Positions 9,081 to 17,876 of a DNA stretch of 40,398 nucleotides are shown here, piece by piece; the first letter of the stretch is position 1; each line of letters starts with the position of its first letter. A program made the translations under genes and the position numbers. The notes beneath the pieces were generated by a model, which was not told where the DNA came from, did not search any database, and was given only the letters and a program-made list of their open reading frames with translations. Origin of the DNA: Tabrizicola sp. (GTDB lineage Bacteria > Pseudomonadota > Alphaproteobacteria > Rhodobacterales > Rhodobacteraceae); contig NZ_JAEULP010000083.1 in the NCBI RefSeq assembly GCF_016792905.1, positions 1 through 40,398 of the forward strand. The letters are read 5' to 3'.

Positions 9081-9257
9081 TCAGTCGACCTGGCAGCCGG
9101 TGCCGCCGATCCCGTCGTCGTCGCCCGGCTGGCAGCGCTGGTCAGCCAGCGGCGCCGACACAGCCCCTTCGACCACGACTTCCGGCTCGAGTGCGACTTC
9201 GGCCTTTTGCGCGCAGGCGGCCAGGAGCAGCAGGGCAAAGAGGGCGATCGGGCGCAT
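9081..9257 (-). CDS. Small lipoprotein, 58 residues
   Basis: A short gene found by direct reading. The peptide begins MRPIALFALLLLAACAQK, a signal peptide with a lipobox (LAAC, Cys15). The mature part is about 44 residues: acidic and valine-rich (EVALEPEVVVEGAV), then a C-terminal segment with two cysteines (DQRCQPGDDDGIGGTGCQVD) that could form a disulfide. It is probably lipidated and periplasmic. Its ATG overlaps the stop of the upstream DUF6502 gene by one base (TGATG), implying coupled expression. I know no named family for it. The lipobox, coupling and exact fit of stop codons support it as real. Confidence 0.75.
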   Translation of the reverse strand: MRPIALFALLLLAACAQKAEVALEPEVVVEGAVSAPLADQRCQPGDDDGIGGTGCQVD

Positions 9258-10009
9258 CAGTCGTTGTCTCCGGTCCGGTAGAAGTAGCCGCCCGCACGGA
9301 ACCGCCGGGGGCCGGGCGTGGCGTTCTCTTCCTTCATCCGGGCGGCAGTCTGGCTGATCTCCTGGAAAAGCGCCATCTCGGCGGCGGCAAATCTTGCGGA
9401 AAGCTCGGCGACCTGCGCTTCGGTCAGGCCGGTGTAATGGACGGCGCGCTCGAAATGCGGCGGGTCGGCGCCCTGCACGTTTTCTGCGGCCGCCTGGGCG
9501 TGGTCGCCAAGGTTGCGGGAGAGATAGGCCAACTGGTCATCTGACCCGGCAAGCGGCTGGTAGGAGGGCTGGATCAGCCGTACCTCCTGTCCGTCATCGG
9601 AGAGCGCGACGGTTCCCGCCGCAAGCAGCGTGTCAAGCATCGTGCGGGGGTGCACATCGCGGCGGACGGTCTGGGCCAGCGCCTCGAAACTTGGCGCCGG
9701 GCCGGAGCGGGGCAGGGGCTGCCCCCCCAGGTCTGGCTCGGTCTGCCAGAGGGCCACCAGCCGGGCGAGGTGGTTCGGGCGGCGGTCCTTCACGTCCTGA
9801 TCCCTGAGCCGGACGACATCACGGCGCTGGAGGCCGGTCAGCACGGACACGCGGCTGTCGGTCGCCCGGTCGCCGGATTGGGCCCCGGCCTGCGCGATTG
9901 CGGCCTGGACGTAGTGGAGCTTCATCCGCTCCACAAGATCGGGGAAAGGCAGGCCGCGCGCGACCAGAAGCCGGGCGATCGGGGCGAAGAGGGCGTCGAA
10001 GATCTCCAT
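9257..10009 (-). CDS. DUF6502 family protein, possible DNA-binding regulator
   Basis: A 250-residue soluble protein matching DUF6502. The N-terminus (MEIFDALFAPIARLLVARGLPF, ERMKLHYVQAA) leads to a segment at about 48-70 (RATDSRVSVLTGLQRRDVVR) that reads like a helix-turn-helix: SRVSVLTGL turn QRRDVVRLRD. The rest is alpha-helical and charged. The start is uncertain: an ATG at 10027 adds six residues, but its start codon sits inside the operator-like site 10011-10027. With the start at 10009 the site lies directly ahead of the gene, which suits autoregulation. It is coupled to the small lipoprotein gene. Regulation of itself and the divergent VWA gene is inference. Confidence 0.72.
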   Translation of the reverse strand: MEIFDALFAPIARLLVARGLPFPDLVERMKLHYVQAAIAQAGAQSGDRATDSRVSVLTGLQRRDVVRLRDQDVKDRRPNHLARLVALWQTEPDLGGQPLPRSGPAPSFEALAQTVRRDVHPRTMLDTLLAAGTVALSDDGQEVRLIQPSYQPLAGSDDQLAYLSRNLGDHAQAAAENVQGADPPHFERAVHYTGLTEAQVAELSARFAAAEMALFQEISQTAARMKEENATPGPRRFRAGGYFYRTGDND

Positions 10010-10010
10010 C

Positions 10011-10027
10011 GTGTGTAATATGCACAT
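10011..10027. promoter_or_regulatory. Operator-like site 1 (imperfect 17-bp palindrome)
   Basis: GTGTGTAATATGCACAT matches the perfect palindrome at 10057-10073 in 14 of 17 positions. It lies immediately before the preferred DUF6502 start (10009). The centre-to-centre distance to site 2 is 46 bp. Confidence 0.5.
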
Positions 10028-10032
10028 TTCCT

Positions 10033-10061
10033 TTGACAGGTCCAGCCCGACGGAATATGTG
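10033..10061 (+). promoter_or_regulatory. Putative promoter of the VWA lipoprotein gene
   Basis: TTGACA, a perfect -35 hexamer, is at 10033-10038. After 17 bp comes TATGTG at 10056-10061, a weak -10 that overlaps operator-like site 2. A regulator bound to site 2 would cover the -10 region. Prediction only. Confidence 0.45.
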
Positions 10062-10073
10062 TAATTTACACAT
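10057..10073. promoter_or_regulatory. Operator-like site 2 (perfect 17-bp palindrome)
   Basis: ATGTGTAA-T-TTACACAT has 8-bp arms around one central base. It lies between the divergent DUF6502 and VWA genes, 18 bp before the VWA start codon, and overlaps the putative -10 box. A related imperfect copy is at 10011-10027. The size and symmetry suit a dimeric helix-turn-helix regulator. Confidence 0.6.
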
Positions 10074-10091: not shown

Positions 10092-11396
10092 ATGCGCCTT
10101 TCCCATGCCTTTCGCCCCCTTGGCTACGTCTCTGCCCTGGCCCTGCTTGCGGGCTGCATGTCCGTGCGCGAGGAGGCGGTCGTCGCGGCCCCGGAACCCG
10201 CGCCCGAGGTCTCTGGCGTATATGGCGGAGACGTCATCGTCGCCGAACCGGCCTATGAAGCCGAAGTGGTCGCGGAATCGCCCCCATCGGGCTCTTACGC
10301 CGGGATTGCGCGGCGGGGTGTGGTCACGGCGGGGGATATCGACGATTTGCTGAACCTTGCGGCCTTCACCCGTTATGTGAAGCGCGCGGGGGGCAGTCTG
10401 GGCCTGCCGCAACTGGGCCTGGGTGCCCCGGTATTGGTGCGGCTGACCGGCCCCGATGGCAGCGCGGCCCCCGGTGCGCGGTATACCTTGCGCAAGCCCG
10501 GCGCGGCGGAGCCGTTCCATGAGGGTTATGCCGGGCCGGAGGGGCGCATCGCCGATTTCCCGCAGGTCCTGGGAGCGGGCAATCCCGGCGCGGTGGAGGT
10601 GCGGGTCTTTGGCGCGGACGGACAGGAGATTGCGCGGGAGACGGTGAGAACCGGCAAGACTGCGACGGTTCGCCTGCCCGAGGCTGCCGGTTGGCAGCCG
10701 GATTTCCTGGACCTTGTGCTGGTGGTCGACACCACCGGGTCGATGGGTGACGAGATCGCCTTCCTGCAGAAGGAGCTGATTGGCATCACCCGTGCGGCGG
10801 CGCGGAAGGCTCCGGGGGTTTCGATCCGTTACGGGCTGGTGGCCTATCGCGACCGGGGCGACGAATATGTGGTCAAGAACTACGGCTTCACCGCGAATGG
10901 GGGGCAGATGGCGGGCTGGCTTCGGGGCCTGTCGGCAGGTGGCGGGGGCGACTACCCGGAAGCGGCGGCGGCGGCGCTGAAGGCCGGGGTCGGGCTGAAC
11001 TGGCGCGCGGGCAAGGGCGAGCGGCTGATCCTGCAGGTCGCCGATGCCCCGCCGCATGATGGCGACGCGGGCAGCTACCTGCGCACCGCGAAGGCGGCGG
11101 CCGACAGGGGAGTGCAGATATTCACCCTCGGCGCTTCGGGCGTCGGTGACGAGGCGGAATACCTGATGCGGCAGGCCTCGGTCGCGACGGGCGGGCGCTA
11201 TCTGTTCCTGACCGACGACAGCGGCGTGGGCCTGGCCCACGCCGAACCGACGGTGCCCTGCTATCAGGTGACAAGGCTGTCGCGGCTCCTGACCCGGGTG
11301 CTGATGACGGAACTGTCCGGGCGGCGCCAGGAGGCGGGTGGAGGCGAGGTGCTGCGCGAAGTGGGCGGCTATGATGCCGGGGTCTGCCGGTCCTGA
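10092..11396 (+). CDS. VWA-domain lipoprotein
   Basis: A 434-residue exported protein. The signal peptide ends in the lipobox LAGC (Cys22). Residues 30-70 are a Pro/Glu/Val-rich linker; about 108-195 may be a beta domain (LVRLTGPDGSAAPGARYTL). A von Willebrand A domain starts at about 206 with the metal site DTTGSMGDE (Asp213, Ser217). It continues through LVAYRDRGDEYVVKNYGF, GGGGDYPEAAAAALKAGV and LILQVADAPPHDG, which resemble Hint/TonB-type VWA proteins of unknown role. Start: GGAG lies 8 nt before the ATG at 10092; a TTG at 10074 is in frame but overlaps the promoter. It diverges from DUF6502. Confidence 0.82.
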   Translation: MRLSHAFRPLGYVSALALLAGCMSVREEAVVAAPEPAPEVSGVYGGDVIVAEPAYEAEVVAESPPSGSYAGIARRGVVTAGDIDDLLNLAAFTRYVKRAGGSLGLPQLGLGAPVLVRLTGPDGSAAPGARYTLRKPGAAEPFHEGYAGPEGRIADFPQVLGAGNPGAVEVRVFGADGQEIARETVRTGKTATVRLPEAAGWQPDFLDLVLVVDTTGSMGDEIAFLQKELIGITRAAARKAPGVSIRYGLVAYRDRGDEYVVKNYGFTANGGQMAGWLRGLSAGGGGDYPEAAAAALKAGVGLNWRAGKGERLILQVADAPPHDGDAGSYLRTAKAAADRGVQIFTLGASGVGDEAEYLMRQASVATGGRYLFLTDDSGVGLAHAEPTVPCYQVTRLSRLLTRVLMTELSGRRQEAGGGEVLREVGGYDAGVCRS

Positions 11397-11543
11397 GATC
11401 GGCAATGACCTCCAAGGGCCGGACCGGCGTTGCCGAAATGCCCGGGCGTGCCGCAGCTTGCGCGCGACCGCCTTGCGCGACCGGCCCCAAATCCGCCAAA
11501 GTCGCCGGGTAAGCCTGAAGGCCGCGCTGGGAGGGGAGGTTCC

Positions 11544-12353
11544 ATGCGTTACCTGTTCCCTGGTCTTCTGGCGGTGGTGCTGGTCGTTTCCGGTCCGGCC
11601 CACCCGCAAGACGCCGACATGGTCAAGCTGGAGACGGCGGACGATTCGCGCGGCTGGGATGCGGTGGGCAAGCTGATCCTCGGCAAGCGCGGCTTCTGCA
11701 CCGGTGCGCTCATCGGGCCGCAGCTGGTGCTGACCGCGGCGCATTGCCTGTATGACAAGACCACCGGCGTGCAGCTCCGCCCCGAGGAGATCGAGTTCCA
11801 GGCCGGTTTCCGCAATGGCCGCGCCGTGGCCTACCGCCGGGTCAGCCGCGCCGTCGCGCATCCGGACTACCGCTTCAGCGCCGGGGACAAGCTGGACCGC
11901 GTGACCGACGACCTGGCGCTTCTCGAACTCAGCCAGCCGATCCGGCTGCCGTCGCTTGCGCCGTTCGAGACCGGCGCCGCCCCGGTCGAGGGCGATCCGG
12001 TCGGCGTCGTTTCCTATGCCCAGTACCGCGAAGAGGCGCCCTCGATCCAGGAGGGCTGCGAAGTGCTGGCGGGTGAACGCACCGCGCTGATCCTGACCTG
12101 CAGCGTCGATTTCGGCTCTTCCGGCGCGCCGGTCTTCACCATCCGCGACGGGGTGGCGAAGGTGGTGTCCGTGATCTCGGCCAAGGCCGAGGTCGATGGC
12201 CGCAAGGTCGCGCTCGCGGTGCCGCTGGCCGAACCGATGGCCGCCTTGCGCAGCGCGCTGGAAGACAGCAAGGCCGGGTCTTTCGGCGGGTCCAAATCGG
12301 TCAGCGTCCTGTCCGGTGGCAATGGCGCCGGGGCAAAGTTCGTCAAGCCATGA
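11544..12353 (+). CDS. Trypsin-like serine protease, exported (copy 1)
   Basis: A 269-residue protein with a signal peptide (MRYLFPGLLAVVLVVSGPAHPQ) and a chymotrypsin-fold protease domain. The catalytic triad is visible: His67 in LVLTAAHCLYD, Asp123 in VTDDLALLEL, Ser193 in DFGSSGAPVF (GxSGxP). Cys52 and Cys68 could form the usual His-loop disulfide. The C-terminus ends with GGNGAGAKFVKP, a Gly-rich stretch then a short conserved end, which the next gene's product also has (GTGTGARFVSP). GAGGGGAGG precedes the ATG at 11544. Substrate unknown. It is coupled to copy 2 and lies after the VWA lipoprotein gene. Confidence 0.85.
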   Translation: MRYLFPGLLAVVLVVSGPAHPQDADMVKLETADDSRGWDAVGKLILGKRGFCTGALIGPQLVLTAAHCLYDKTTGVQLRPEEIEFQAGFRNGRAVAYRRVSRAVAHPDYRFSAGDKLDRVTDDLALLELSQPIRLPSLAPFETGAAPVEGDPVGVVSYAQYREEAPSIQEGCEVLAGERTALILTCSVDFGSSGAPVFTIRDGVAKVVSVISAKAEVDGRKVALAVPLAEPMAALRSALEDSKAGSFGGSKSVSVLSGGNGAGAKFVKP

Positions 12354-13219
12354 AGGCGCTGCTGGCCTCGGTGATCCTTGTGGCAGGCGCGGCGGGCGCC
12401 GAGCCGAACTCGGGCCTTGACGAGTTGACCACGCGCGAGGACCTGCGCGGGTTCGAACCCGTGGGCCGGGTGGATGTCGAGAACGGCGGCTTCTGCACCG
12501 GCACGCTGATCGCCGACGACCTTGTGCTGACGGCGGCGCATTGCGTCCTGAAACCGGACGGCACCCCGGTAGATGCCGCGCGGATCACCTTCCGGGCCGG
12601 GTTTTCGCATGGCATCTCGCTGGCCGAGGTGCCGGTGGCCCGCACCATCGCCGACCCCGCCTATCGGAACGCCAGTCCCGCGCCGGTCGAGATGATCGAA
12701 CGCGACGTGGCGCTCTTGCAGCTTGCAAGTCCGATCCCAAGCTCGGTCATCTCGCCCTTTGCCGTGGCCCGCCCCGGAACCGGAGACGAGGTCAGCGTGG
12801 TCTCCTATGCCGAGGGGAGGGAAGAGGCGCTGTCCTGGCAGCGGGTCTGCAAGGTCATGGGCCGTGAGGATCGGTTGATCGCCTTCGATTGCGACGTGAC
12901 GTTCGGTTCGTCCGGCGCTCCGGTGCTGGACCGGTCGGGCTATCGGGCGAAGATCGTCTCGATCATCTCGGCGGGGGGCGAGATGGACGGCAAGGCGATT
13001 GCCTTCGGAATGGAACTGCCCGACCGCGTGGACGAGCTGAAAGCCGCGCTCGGCGAGGGCCAATCGCTCAGCCCCGGCAAGCCGGGTGCGAAGGGTCCGC
13101 CCGGGATTGCGTCGTCGGGGATGCCGGGCAAGCCTGCCAGGCGCATCGTGCTGCAGGGCGACAGCGGCACATCAGCCGTCACCGGCACCGGTACCGGAGC
13201 GCGCTTCGTCTCGCCCTGA
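12350..13219 (+). CDS. Trypsin-like serine protease, exported (copy 2)
   Basis: A 289-residue paralogue of the upstream protease, overlapping it by ATGA (4 bases). The signal peptide is MKALLASVILVAGAAGA. Triad: His64 (LVLTAAHCV), Asp119 (ERDVALLQL), Ser188 (TFGSSGAPVL). Many segments match copy 1 (GGFCTGTLI, VVSYAEGREEA), showing a tandem duplication. It differs by a C-terminal insertion at about 241-265 with four Gly-X-Y triplets (GKPGAKGPPGIA), a short collagen-like stretch, before the shared Gly-rich tail GTGTGARFVSP. Both are probably periplasmic or secreted. Confidence 0.85.
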   Translation: MKALLASVILVAGAAGAEPNSGLDELTTREDLRGFEPVGRVDVENGGFCTGTLIADDLVLTAAHCVLKPDGTPVDAARITFRAGFSHGISLAEVPVARTIADPAYRNASPAPVEMIERDVALLQLASPIPSSVISPFAVARPGTGDEVSVVSYAEGREEALSWQRVCKVMGREDRLIAFDCDVTFGSSGAPVLDRSGYRAKIVSIISAGGEMDGKAIAFGMELPDRVDELKAALGEGQSLSPGKPGAKGPPGIASSGMPGKPARRIVLQGDSGTSAVTGTGTGARFVSP

Positions 13220-13916: not shown

Positions 13917-14681
13917 TCAAGCCTCGGTCAGGTCGTGATAGGCGGCAATCGCCAGCCGTCGCAGCGTGTCGCGCGGCAGATCGCCGACCAGCGCGCAGCC
14001 CAGGTTGCCCTCGATCCACCAGAACGCCTGCCGCCCCGGCTCCTCGGCAAAGGCAAGGTCGCTTTCCCGCCCCTCGCTGCGCGACAGATACAGCGCCAGC
14101 CTGCGCCCCAGGTCATCCTCGTACATCAGGAGTGCCGCGGGCGAGGTCGCGCCCGGCAGAAGCCTGCCGCCGATCAGCCGGAAGCCCCCTGTCGACAGGT
14201 CGGGCGGGTGGAACGGGGTGCCAAGGCGCTTGGACAGCCATTGCACCAGATGCGCCTCGTCCTCGGCGCCGACCTCGACCGGATGCCGCGCCTCGACGGA
14301 ATAGGTGGCAAAGCTGGTCATCGCCGCCTGGGCAAGGGTCGGGCTGGCCGGGGATTGGGTGAAGCGCGCGCCGCCCCATCCGGCGGCGAAGCCGAAGGCC
14401 AGCAGCGCCACCCCGGCGGCGATGCGCCACATGGGCAGCGCGGGGCGGCGGGGCGCATGGCGTGCCCCGGTGATCATCTTCCGCAGGCGGTCGGGGATCG
14501 GTTCCTCGGCAACCGGGGCGTACAGCGCGCGGATCGCCGCATCCTGCCGGTCCCAGTCGGCGATGAGCGCGGCCAGCCCCGCATCGGTTTCGGCCATGGC
14601 GCGCAGCCGGGCCTGATCGGCCTCTGACCCGTGGCGCAGGCGCAGCGCCTCTTCCTGATCGAACGACGGGGAACCGGACAT
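13917..14681 (-). CDS. Membrane anti-sigma factor
   Basis: A 254-residue protein with one membrane span at about 84-104 (MWRIAAGVALLAFGFAAGWGG). About 80 cytoplasmic N-terminal residues contain the anti-sigma signature region (RLRAMAETDAGLAALIADWDRQDAAIRALYAPV, EEPIPDRLRKMI). The C-terminal 150 residues are predicted periplasmic. No zinc HxxxCxxC motif is present, so it is of the non-zinc class. The ATG overlaps the sigma gene's stop (TGATG), the classic coupling of an ECF sigma and its inhibitor. Annotation as anti-sigma rests on this pairing and topology. Confidence 0.8.
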   Translation of the reverse strand: MSGSPSFDQEEALRLRHGSEADQARLRAMAETDAGLAALIADWDRQDAAIRALYAPVAEEPIPDRLRKMITGARHAPRRPALPMWRIAAGVALLAFGFAAGWGGARFTQSPASPTLAQAAMTSFATYSVEARHPVEVGAEDEAHLVQWLSKRLGTPFHPPDLSTGGFRLIGGRLLPGATSPAALLMYEDDLGRRLALYLSRSEGRESDLAFAEEPGRQAFWWIEGNLGCALVGDLPRDTLRRLAIAAYHDLTEA

Positions 14682-15193
14682 CACTCGCCTGCCTTTCCGG
14701 GACGGTGGGGCACCGCCTCGCGCCCCGTCATCTGTCTCAATGCCGCCCGCCCCCGCGCCAGCCGCGAGGCGAGCGTGCCCTCGGCACAGCCCAGCACGCT
14801 TGCGGCTTCGGCAAGGCTCATCCCCTCCAGCGCCACCAGGAGCAGGGCGGCGCGCTGGTCCTCGGGCAGGCGGCCCATCGCGGCGTGAACCTCGGCCAGC
14901 GCCAGCCGCCCCTCGGCGGCGCGGGTGGCCGACAGGTCGGCCGGGTCCGGGACCAGCGTCAGCACTATCGTTTCAGGGCGCTTCCGCCGCAGCCCGTCGC
15001 GAAAGCGGTTCATCAGGATGCGGGCCAGCCAGGCGCGCAACGGGCCATCACCGCGCCATTGCGCCTGCCGGGCCAATGCGGCTTCAAGCGTGTCCTGGAC
15101 CAGATCATCCGCCACCTCGCGGTCACGCGTCAGCGCCCGGGCATAGGCCCGAAGGCCCGGGATGGCGGCCTCGATCTGGTCCAGGAACGGCAT
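14681..15193 (-). CDS. ECF-type RNA polymerase sigma factor
   Basis: A 170-residue sigma-70 family protein with only regions 2 and 4. Region 2 reads LRAYARALTRDREVADDLVQDTLEAALAR and WLARILMNRFRDGLRRKR. Region 4 is LPEDQRAALLLVALEGMSLAEAASVLGCAEGTLASRLARGRAALR, with a helix-turn-helix that binds -35 DNA. Directly downstream is its membrane anti-sigma gene. Upstream by 21 bp is a COG4315-type periplasmic protein gene, so the three probably form an autoregulated unit. The inducing stress is not evident. Confidence 0.92.
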   Translation of the reverse strand: MPFLDQIEAAIPGLRAYARALTRDREVADDLVQDTLEAALARQAQWRGDGPLRAWLARILMNRFRDGLRRKRPETIVLTLVPDPADLSATRAAEGRLALAEVHAAMGRLPEDQRAALLLVALEGMSLAEAASVLGCAEGTLASRLARGRAALRQMTGREAVPHRPGKAGE

Positions 15194-15214
15194 TGCTGGT
15201 CTGGGTCCTTGGCC

Positions 15215-15580
15215 TCAGTCTGCCTTGGCAGTGTGCCAGACGTCGTTGACGCCGTCGCCGGTCATGTCGCCCGGCTTCTGGTCCTTGACCCAGAGATAGA
15301 GCGGCTTGCCGTCATAGGTCCATTGCTTCGAGCCATCGGTGCGGTCGGTCAGGCCGTATTCGCCTTCGGCCTTGGCATCGGCGGCGGCCAGCAGCGGCGG
15401 CCAGTTTTCGGCGCATTTGTCGTAGCAGGCCGAGACGCCGCCTTCGTCCTTGTCGAAGGTGTACAGCGTCATGCCGTTGGCATCGGTCAGGACGCCGTCC
15501 TTTTCCATCACGGCCATGCCGTCGGCCAGCGCGGGCCCAGCCAGAAGGGCAAGAACAAGGGCGAGCGGGGTGCGGGTCAT
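15215..15580 (-). CDS. COG4315-type periplasmic repeat protein
   Basis: A 121-residue exported protein. Signal peptide MTRTPLALVLALLAGPALA is followed by two copies of the family's Y-x-(F/W)-x-x-D type motif: MTLYTFDKDEGGVSACYDKCAENWPPL and GKPLYLWVKDQKPGD. The two cysteines in SACYDKCAENWPPL are characteristic. Family members are secreted or lipid-anchored proteins of unknown function, often found beside ECF sigma genes in alphaproteobacteria. The start is set by AGGA 8 nt before the ATG. An upstream in-frame extension to 15640 lacks similarity. Confidence 0.83.
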   Translation of the reverse strand: MTRTPLALVLALLAGPALADGMAVMEKDGVLTDANGMTLYTFDKDEGGVSACYDKCAENWPPLLAAADAKAEGEYGLTDRTDGSKQWTYDGKPLYLWVKDQKPGDMTGDGVNDVWHTAKAD

Positions 15581-15648
15581 CGAGAATCCTCCGATTGGCT
15601 TCGCTTGGCCCGAAGCCGGGCGGGCAGCCACTGCGGCCACCTGCAGGG

Positions 15649-15677
15649 AATGACGCAGCCGACGCGAGTTTCATCCC
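15649..15677 (-). promoter_or_regulatory. Putative ECF-type promoter ahead of the COG4315-sigma-anti-sigma genes
   Basis: On the minus strand GGGATGAA is followed after 15 bp by GTCATT, about 70 bp before the COG4315 start. The GGRAT(G)AA / GTC pattern resembles ECF promoters and suits autoregulation by the sigma factor encoded here. This is a visual match with no alignment behind it. Confidence 0.3.
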
Positions 15678-15710
15678 GCGCCGGCCTTGGTCTCACGCGC
15701 TTGTGATGAC

Positions 15711-17876
15711 CTACTTCGACAGGCTTTGCGCCAGCCGCATCAGGTTCACCGCCTCGATCCGGTAGCCGAAGGCATCCTCGCCCCGGTTCGCCCCGGCCAG
15801 CGCAATGGCCTCGTCCCAGCCCCAGTCGCCGAGGTAGACCGAGCCCTGCAACAGCTGCCCGAAGCCCGCGATGGCCGCGGCGAAGCGGGTCTCCGTGGAG
15901 GCAGCCTCCTGTCCGGTGATCGGGGTTTCCACCAAGGTCGAGCTATCCTCGCCCGGCGCCTTCCAGCGCAGCCGCAGGAAGCCGAGTTCCCCCGCCGTCC
16001 CCTCGGCCGGGGCCGTGCCATAGCGCAAGGGATCGTTCAGCAAAGCGTCCGACCCCGGCGCCGTCACCTCGTAGATCGCCGTGACCTGCGTCCCCGCGCC
16101 GATCTCGCCCGCGTCGACCTTGTCGTTGTTGAAATCCTCCCGCCGGAGGCTGCGGGTCTCGTAGCCGATCAGCCGGTATTCCGCGACGGTCGCGGGGTTC
16201 CATTCGACCTGGATCTTCACGTCGTCGGCGATGGGGAACAAAGCTCCGGTCAGCTGGTCCACCAGCACCTTCCGCGCCTCGCTGAGGGTGTCGATATAGG
16301 CCGCCGTCCCGTTGCCGTTCTGCGCCAAGGCCTGCATGATCGCATCGTCCAGGTTGCCGCGCCCGAAGCCCAGGACCGACAGATAGGTGCCGCTCTCGCG
16401 CTTCTTCGCGACATAGGCTTCCAGCCCGTCCGGGTCGTCGATCCCGACGTTGAAGTCGCCATCGGTGGCCAGCAGGATGCGCGTGACCTCGCCGTCGGCC
16501 TTCATCCCGTCCGCCACCTGATAGGCCAGCTCCAGCCCCTCGGCCCCGGCGGTTGACCCGCCCGCCGCAAGGTTCTCCAGCGAGGCCAGGATCGTCGCCC
16601 GATCCTTCGCGGCCGTCGGCGGCAGCACCAGACCGGCCGACCCGGCATAGGTGACGATGGACACCTGATCCTCGGGCCGCAGTTCCGACAGCATCAGCGA
16701 CAGCGACTGCTTGAGGAGCGGCAGCTTGTTGGCATCCTCCATCGACCCCGAAGTGTCGATCAGGAACACCAGGTTCAGCGGGGGGCGGGCGGTGACTTCG
16801 GGCAGCGCACCCTGGATGCCGATGGTGACAAGCCGCGTGCCGGGGTTCCAGGGCGTCGGCATCACGCTGACGGTCGAGGCGAAGGCCGCGTCCCCCTCGG
16901 GCGCCGCGTAGGCATAGGGGAAGTAGTTCACCATCTCTTCGATGCGCACCTGATCGGGCGTCGGCAGATAGCCCCCGGTCAACGAGGACCGCACCACGGC
17001 ATAGGAGGCGGTATCCACGTCGATCGAGAAGGTCGAGACGGGTTCCTCCGCCGTCACCTTCACCGGGTTCGGGGCCTCGTTGGCATAGGCCTCGGTGTTC
17101 TCGACCGGCGGCGGCATCAGCTCCGGTTCGGCAGTGATCGAGGTCGCCGGGGCGGCGACATAGCCCATCACCCCGCCCGCATCGGCAGGGGCCTCGGTGC
17201 GCAGGCGGGCTTCGGCATCGGCGACGAGGCCTTCGACGGGGGCAGGCGCCGCCTCTTCCGCCAGATCCAGAGCCGGAGCCTCCATCATGGGCTCCGCTTC
17301 CGTCGCGGCAACGGCGGTCGAGGAACTGTCGATCTCGGTTCCCGCCTGCCGGGCAAGTTCGTCGGTGGCAACCGCTTTCGCCTCTGGCTTCGGCGTAGCA
17401 GTGTCAATGCCGGTCGGGGCCGCATCGTCGGCCTCGACCGACAGGGCCGCAGCCTCGCCACCGGAATTGGCCGTGGTCGCGCCCTCGGGGGCCGTTTCCG
17501 TTTGCGGCGTGGTCGGCAGGGGGTCCACCACCGGCTCTACCGGCGGAACCGGCTCGGTCTTCGGCGCCTCGACCACGGTGGGCTTGCCGATCCGAAGATC
17601 GGCCACCGGCAGGATCACCGCGACACCGATGATCAGCGCCGCGACCGAGGTGGTGGCGGCAAGGGCGGGGCGGGAGGTCAGGTAATTCAACATGCGACGT
17701 ACTCCGTTCAGGGGGGCCGCTTTGGTGCGGTCCTCACTGGAACGTGTCCCTTCCGTCGATCCTTGGAGCCGGTCGAAATTTTCCATCGCCAGCGCCATCG
17801 CCCGCGCCTTCGCATCCCCATCCGGGGCCGGCGCCGCCTTCAGCAGGCCGCGGAGGTCGTCAAGATCGTCGCTCAT
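15711..17876 (-). CDS. YfbK-like VWA membrane protein in anti-sigma position
   Basis: A 721-residue protein. Residues 1-66 are cytoplasmic (helical, charged). A single membrane span is at about 71-92. A long Pro/Thr/Glu/Ala-rich linker (100-265) follows. Then come the VWA N-terminal region (NPVKVTAEEPVSTFSIDVDTASYAVVR, 270-345), a VWA domain with intact metal site DTSGSM (Asp374, Ser376, Ser378) and LLATDGDFNVG, and a C-terminal DUF3520-like region, as in E. coli YfbK. The ATG overlaps the sigma gene stop (ATGA). This is the slot where an anti-sigma gene normally lies, so the N-terminal segment may bind the sigma factor; that is inference. Confidence 0.87.
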   Translation of the reverse strand: MSDDLDDLRGLLKAAPAPDGDAKARAMALAMENFDRLQGSTEGTRSSEDRTKAAPLNGVRRMLNYLTSRPALAATTSVAALIIGVAVILPVADLRIGKPTVVEAPKTEPVPPVEPVVDPLPTTPQTETAPEGATTANSGGEAAALSVEADDAAPTGIDTATPKPEAKAVATDELARQAGTEIDSSSTAVAATEAEPMMEAPALDLAEEAAPAPVEGLVADAEARLRTEAPADAGGVMGYVAAPATSITAEPELMPPPVENTEAYANEAPNPVKVTAEEPVSTFSIDVDTASYAVVRSSLTGGYLPTPDQVRIEEMVNYFPYAYAAPEGDAAFASTVSVMPTPWNPGTRLVTIGIQGALPEVTARPPLNLVFLIDTSGSMEDANKLPLLKQSLSLMLSELRPEDQVSIVTYAGSAGLVLPPTAAKDRATILASLENLAAGGSTAGAEGLELAYQVADGMKADGEVTRILLATDGDFNVGIDDPDGLEAYVAKKRESGTYLSVLGFGRGNLDDAIMQALAQNGNGTAAYIDTLSEARKVLVDQLTGALFPIADDVKIQVEWNPATVAEYRLIGYETRSLRREDFNNDKVDAGEIGAGTQVTAIYEVTAPGSDALLNDPLRYGTAPAEGTAGELGFLRLRWKAPGEDSSTLVETPITGQEAASTETRFAAAIAGFGQLLQGSVYLGDWGWDEAIALAGANRGEDAFGYRIEAVNLMRLAQSLSK

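Follow-up and report, generated by a model that had tools for sequence, protein, structure and literature searches.

Within the window analysed here, a stretch of 40,398 nucleotides, the minus strand carries at 9257..10009 a gene for a protein of 250 aa that belongs to Pfam family PF20112 (DUF6502), with a match over residues 7-224 (E 9.6e-13, 48 bits vs a curated cut-off of 27). The protein is predicted to consist of an N-terminal helix-turn-helix (HTH), a winged helix, and long C-terminal helices. Pfam recognized DUF6502 alone in it, with no described regulator family, and NCBIfam gave no match. The gene is followed by one for a small lipoprotein of 58 aa with the C-terminus GIGGTGCQVD (9081..9257, minus strand), and as the ATG of the latter overlaps the DUF6502 stop codon, the two likely share one operon. 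Divergent from them on the plus strand is a gene at 10092..11396 (ATG at 10092), whose product is a lipoprotein by its N-terminus and contains a von Willebrand factor A (VWA) domain (Pfam VWA_4, E 1.3e-10). This gene is succeeded at 11430-13219 (plus strand) by two tandem ORFs, the first of which encodes a trypsin-like protease according to Pfam; the second begins inside the end of the first and resembles it by eye. Farther along, the minus strand of 13917-17876 encodes an ECF sigma factor together with what may be an anti-sigma protein (its NepR match stays below the cut-off) and a VWA protein of the YfbK type, so that the window has a further VWA gene in the vicinity of a regulator.

Similar surroundings are seen in related bacteria. 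A downstream protein with the GGIGGTG motif, either similarly small or larger, was found by eye in many of 30 relatives, though not in every one, and the divergent partner varies by clade, being of the VWA type, another short lipoprotein-like protein, or a fasciclin protein. The N-terminal motif TAGDIDD of the VWA type occurs on the divergent strand at 37 of the 70 loci with enough upstream DNA. Pfam assignments cover few examples of the divergent partners, with the VWA gene of the window and one fasciclin gene exceeding the cut-off; the four neighbours searched gave this fasciclin match (n=1), DUF6692 and DUF5666 below the cut-off (n=2), and no convincing family (n=1). The recognized divergent partners usually have a lipoprotein-like or signal-like N-terminus, as judged by eye. 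Together with the frequent GGIGGTG partner downstream, this suggests that the genes under the control proposed below probably concern the cell envelope.

The intergenic region between the DUF6502 and VWA lipoprotein genes contains two palindromes whose starts are 46 bp apart. The distal one, ATGTGTAATTTACACAT at 10057-10073, is a perfect 17-bp palindrome of the form ATGTGTAA-T-TTACACAT with 0 mismatches, whereas the proximal one, GTGTGTAATATGCACAT at 10011-10027, has 3 mismatches and agrees with the perfect site at 14/17 positions. A position scan and shuffling thus bear out the initial annotation, which had described exactly such a pair: the chance expectation of such matches in shuffled windows was a mean of 0.01, and two at once were seen in 0/100 shuffles. 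The candidate proximal operator stops 1 nt before the DUF6502 ATG, so that it does abut the DUF6502 start, as had been claimed, provided that this start is the ATG at 10009, which conservation favours; the ATG at 10027, which gives the longest ORF, falls within the site itself. The source genome assembly (3.79 Mb in 91 contigs, 92.9% complete) contains TGTGTAANTTACACA with ≤2 mismatches at these two places only, and with ≤3 mismatches at 5 places in total vs 11 for the reversed control pattern. The literal letters of the perfect site had no match in the open-access literature searched, and the sole match to the operator strings there was an E. coli genome editing paper.

If these palindromes serve the DUF6502 gene, they should recur with it, and the initial annotation had named their presence at orthologous DUF6502 promoters as a test. 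DUF6502 itself was found in 34/295 genomes of the source family, in 15/385 genomes sampled from the class, in 21/398 sampled across the phylum, and in 117/299 sampled from another family of the same phylum, from which 30 loci were requested. A scan of named genomes yielded 577 relatives, and the best 80 of these were used; the nearest among these 80 was a Tabrizicola MAG with 85% identity. On the gene strand, close orthologues have two palindromes of the form TGTGYANNNTRCACA at the equivalent place. The merged set comprised 174 loci, reduced to 149 by dropping proteins at least 90% identical and to 147 by requiring at least 150 bp of upstream DNA. Under a wide rule (palindrome TG[GT]G-N6-8-C[AC]CA, ≥5 positions paired), a site is present upstream in 111/147 loci, and two or more in 50. 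The corresponding numbers were 3.3 and 0.04 in shuffled regions, and 2/147 and 0 in a segment taken inside each gene. A stricter rule applied to the first 109 loci gave 62 with a site vs 0.75 in shuffles and 0/109 inside genes. A narrower pair rule (TGTG...CACA pair, ≤1 mismatch over 16 fixed letters, spacing 44-53 allowed) was applied to those 73 of the kept loci with numbers no higher than L111; the pair is present at 54 and absent from 19. The sites thus pass the test strongly.

The wide rule leaves 36/147 loci without a site, three of which (L014, L015, and L060) carry a pair under the TGTG pair rule. A further case is L018 in genome G228, which has no site and only about 17 bp between the aligned DUF6502 start and the divergent gene. 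Here the operator-bearing intergenic region has shrunk while the DUF6502 frame is still open, a natural operator loss. Other loci have three stacked palindromes upstream of DUF6502, either by the wide rule (L186 and L188) or by eye (L174 and L183).

The location of the sites relative to the putative promoters is equally regular. On the lipoprotein strand, the perfect -35 box TTGACA (10033..10038, plus strand), which recurs as TTGAC in relatives, is followed after 17 bp by the presumed -10 region TATGTG (10056..10061, plus strand), and the latter overlaps the distal operator in the manner already proposed from the sequence of the window. For the DUF6502 gene, the probable -35 region is CTGGAC (10040..10045, minus strand), placed where relatives have a TTG start that the window does not have, and 17 bp from it the probable -10 box CATATT (10017..10022, minus strand) lies within the proximal operator. 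TATGTG agrees with the -10 consensus at just 3/6 positions, and a sigma-70 consensus scan of the window called neither promoter, as both -10 boxes are weak when measured by that of E. coli. The placement comes from recurring spacing in the 54 loci with a pair. The two palindromes are 46 (18 loci), 47 (20), 48 (11), 49 (1), 51 (2), or 52 bp (2) apart, so that 49/54 pairs have a spacing of 46-48 bp. A TTG -35 start occurs 19 or 18 bp ahead of the proximal site on the DUF6502 strand in 32/54 loci, which would place the -10 inside the palindrome, and TTGAC occurs 25 or 26 bp ahead of the distal site on the other strand in 33/54 loci, which would make the lipoprotein -10 overlap the distal site as well. 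The sequence between the paired sites is less conserved except for these -35/-10-like elements. Moreover, the first ATG lies 1 or 2 nt past the 15-bp proximal core in 43/54 loci, and in 42 of them it is in frame with DUF6502. As this is about where transcription would begin, the DUF6502 message is probably leaderless, with its start at or beside the ATG.

Sites that overlap both promoters, as placed by this spacing, beside the gene of a regulator are the arrangement of a divergent autorepressor, and their position over both -10 regions favours repression over activation. It is conceivable that DUF6502, when bound to the sites, acts as an activator of the divergent lipoprotein gene, or alternates between both modes; twin sites between divergent promoters are known from activators too, and the tight spacing of the pairs would suit such a role. 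However, activators usually sit in the -40 to -70 region, and both palindromes lie over the presumed -10 instead, which leaves activation unlikely. The initial annotation had allowed DUF6502 either to repress or to activate both sides. Control of both sides by DUF6502 is supported by the conserved sites and the predicted HTH, and of the two modes the overlap with the -10 regions speaks for repression.

The pattern of the palindromes does not by itself name the protein that reads them, and TGTG...CACA resembles a pair of CRP half-sites. An unlinked regulator of the CRP/FNR kind might therefore bind them and control both DUF6502 and its neighbour. The distribution of the sites argues against such a regulator, as they occur almost exclusively at the DUF6502 locus and follow the presence of DUF6502. 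The pair pattern (26-44 bp gap) occurs in 9/34 genomes with DUF6502 vs 0/261 without it (Fisher 1.3e-9, ignoring kinship of the genomes), and the reversed control pattern in none. Eight of the nine pair-bearing genomes have a single pair, which is the one at the DUF6502 gene, whereas 22 pairs are present in G221, the remaining genome. The single-site pattern has matches in 16 of the 34 genomes with DUF6502 vs 2 of 34 sampled from the 261 without it, and in 12 of these 16 genomes every single-site place (16/16) is at the DUF6502 locus; off-locus single sites are seen in G073 (2), G228 (1), and G294 (1), and G221 has 51 sites. The letters that the DUF6502 sites share with CRP/FNR operators are also differently arranged. 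The CRP site, TGTGA-N6-TCACA, has an inner length of 8 and an A after TGTG, whereas the inner length is 7 in 100/100 TGTG/CACA sites found by the wide rule, although 6-8 were permitted, and C or T follows TGTG in 195/200 half-sites. A CRP-type reader was rejected on these grounds of spacing and sequence. In addition, different DUF6502 clades have different types of site, and DUF6502, unlike CRP/FNR regulators, has no Pfam match to a cyclic-nucleotide-binding domain. We regard control by an unlinked CRP/FNR-type protein as very improbable.

Even less credible is the notion that the palindromes act as RNA hairpins, terminators, or mobile repeats rather than as protein sites. It draws some support from G221, where similar palindromes occur within dispersed intergenic repeats, but in the 12 genomes mentioned above the sites are found at the DUF6502 locus only, with a recurring promoter geometry. 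Judged from the sequence, a loop of 1 nt between arms of 7-8 would not give a good hairpin, and no terminator was called in the window; the RNA and terminator readings were discarded.

The helix-turn-helix-like segment noticed earlier in DUF6502 is borne out by a confident AlphaFold model (pLDDT 89.4 for the whole protein and 93.1 for residues 1-152). With domains assigned from the secondary structure of the model, the predicted HTH helices comprise residues 51-58 and 62-69 and the winged helix residues 80-145, so that DUF6502 is predicted to be an HTH/winged-helix protein in the broad sense. In Foldseek searches with both DUF6502 models, no PDB entry reached an E of 0.001; the top hits of both were HetR-DNA complexes, which are weak matches (E 0.012 and 0.03, TM 0.27-0.49). 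Kinship with HetR by sequence was not supported, as hhalign gave a probability of 0.3% against one HetR sequence, and a PDB profile search with DUF6502 returned two chance-level hits only, with HetR absent up to E 10. Outside the flap and hood domains of HetR, the comparison reveals certain parallels with this regulator of heterocyst-forming cyanobacteria. Two reports describe HetR as requiring GGGnnnnnCCC (PMC4192349), as contacting the G run of its target DNA through Lys73 (PMC4649674), and as autoregulated (PMC4192349, PMC4649674), as is proposed here for DUF6502. When aligned by hand, Lys73 corresponds to DUF6502 residue 63. In contrast to the inner length of 5 in HetR targets, the DUF6502 sites have one of 7 or 8.

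On the basis of the computed sites, their conservation and position, their near-exclusive location at the DUF6502 locus, and the predicted HTH fold, we infer that DUF6502 itself binds the palindromes. DUF6502 is thus likely to represent a family of HTH-type local autorepressors, with the twin palindromes as operators through which both promoters are shut off. One DUF6502 dimer would occupy each palindrome and cover the -10 of one of the two back-to-back promoters. With dimers over both -10 regions, the protein would repress its own operon, consisting of DUF6502 and the small lipoprotein gene, as well as the divergent VWA lipoprotein gene. Repression would be released by a signal, sensed probably by the C-terminal half of the protein.

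Local autorepressors on divergent promoters are a general architecture, exemplified by TetR/TetA. As in that system, regulator and target lie back to back, with palindromic operators over both promoters. However, DUF6502 matches no described regulator family in Pfam, NCBIfam, or the PDB profile search, and its targets would be envelope lipoproteins. Such an architecture is commonplace among local repressors; within the reach of our searches, the novelty lies in the family, its operators, and its target genes. Neither DUF6502 nor PF20112 was mentioned in the 5.39 million open-access papers searched, and within the same limits the earlier statement that a DUF6502 binding site had not been described holds. 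What had been a family without assigned function becomes a testable set of regulators for which both target sites and target genes are predicted.

The operators fall into types that appear to shift jointly with the recognition helix between clades, with phylogeny as a confounding factor. Among the first 111 loci, R63 accompanies 65/65 TGTG operators and K63 16/19 TGGG operators (4 mixed and 23 site-less loci excluded). This near-perfect rule was weakened by further loci, and the counts now stand at 64 for R63 with TGTG, 38 for K63 with TGGG, 6 for R63 with TGGG, and 0 for K63 with TGTG, with 3 ties. The loci that combine R63 with TGGG sites (L115, L119, L125, L175, L179, and L182) show that the operator is not set by residue 63 alone. 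Trees give 6-9 changes at residue 63 as against 6-7 in the operator. A tree-based test of their association was not significant (median p 0.5), the 3-4 independent pairs on supported branches being too few; none of these pairs was opposed and some were without difference. Furthermore, columns outside the HTH score equally or higher, with residues L81, F207, and K226 above R63, so that clade history accounts for part of the covariation. Residue 61 goes with the inner length, which is 8 in 18/19 sites with Thr or Ser and 7 in 145/145 with Gln or His, an association that rests mostly on one clade. Clade-specific operators and recognition helices of this kind offer a ready set for studying joint change of regulators and their sites.

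A separate group of loci (L132-L134 and L155-L170) has recognition helices of the GLTRK/GLSRK type and mostly one site of the TTTGGGATAAATTTCCCAAA type, which has an inner length of 8 and lies 33-41 bp ahead of the aligned start. Within it, L169 and L170 have two sites farther upstream, and L164 and L167 have none by the rule.

A much broader role for DUF6502 can also be imagined. DUF6502 would then be a separate transcription factor family with its own operator code, in which residue 63 helps to choose between TGTG and TGGG and residue 61 goes with an inner length of 7 or 8, and with a HetR-like DNA-reading unit. In at least one species, represented by G221, it would have expanded beyond its original locus to some 50 sites and so have acquired a role across the whole chromosome; many of these sites form arrays phased at 41 bp, and some adjoin repeats that resemble DnaA boxes. 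We consider this proposal as a whole quite doubtful.

The genome in question, that of Pseudaestuariivita rosea (loci L043, L046-L051, and L216-L235), has its 51 DUF6502-type sites dispersed over the genome, and those looked at are mostly intergenic. Twenty pairs, likewise dispersed, are spaced at exactly 41 bp, 18 of them being exact and 2 having one mismatch. The repeat GCGCGTTGACATNAANNTTATCCACA is found at ten places, while other places have unrelated spacers, and the element TTATCCACA within this repeat resembles a DnaA box.
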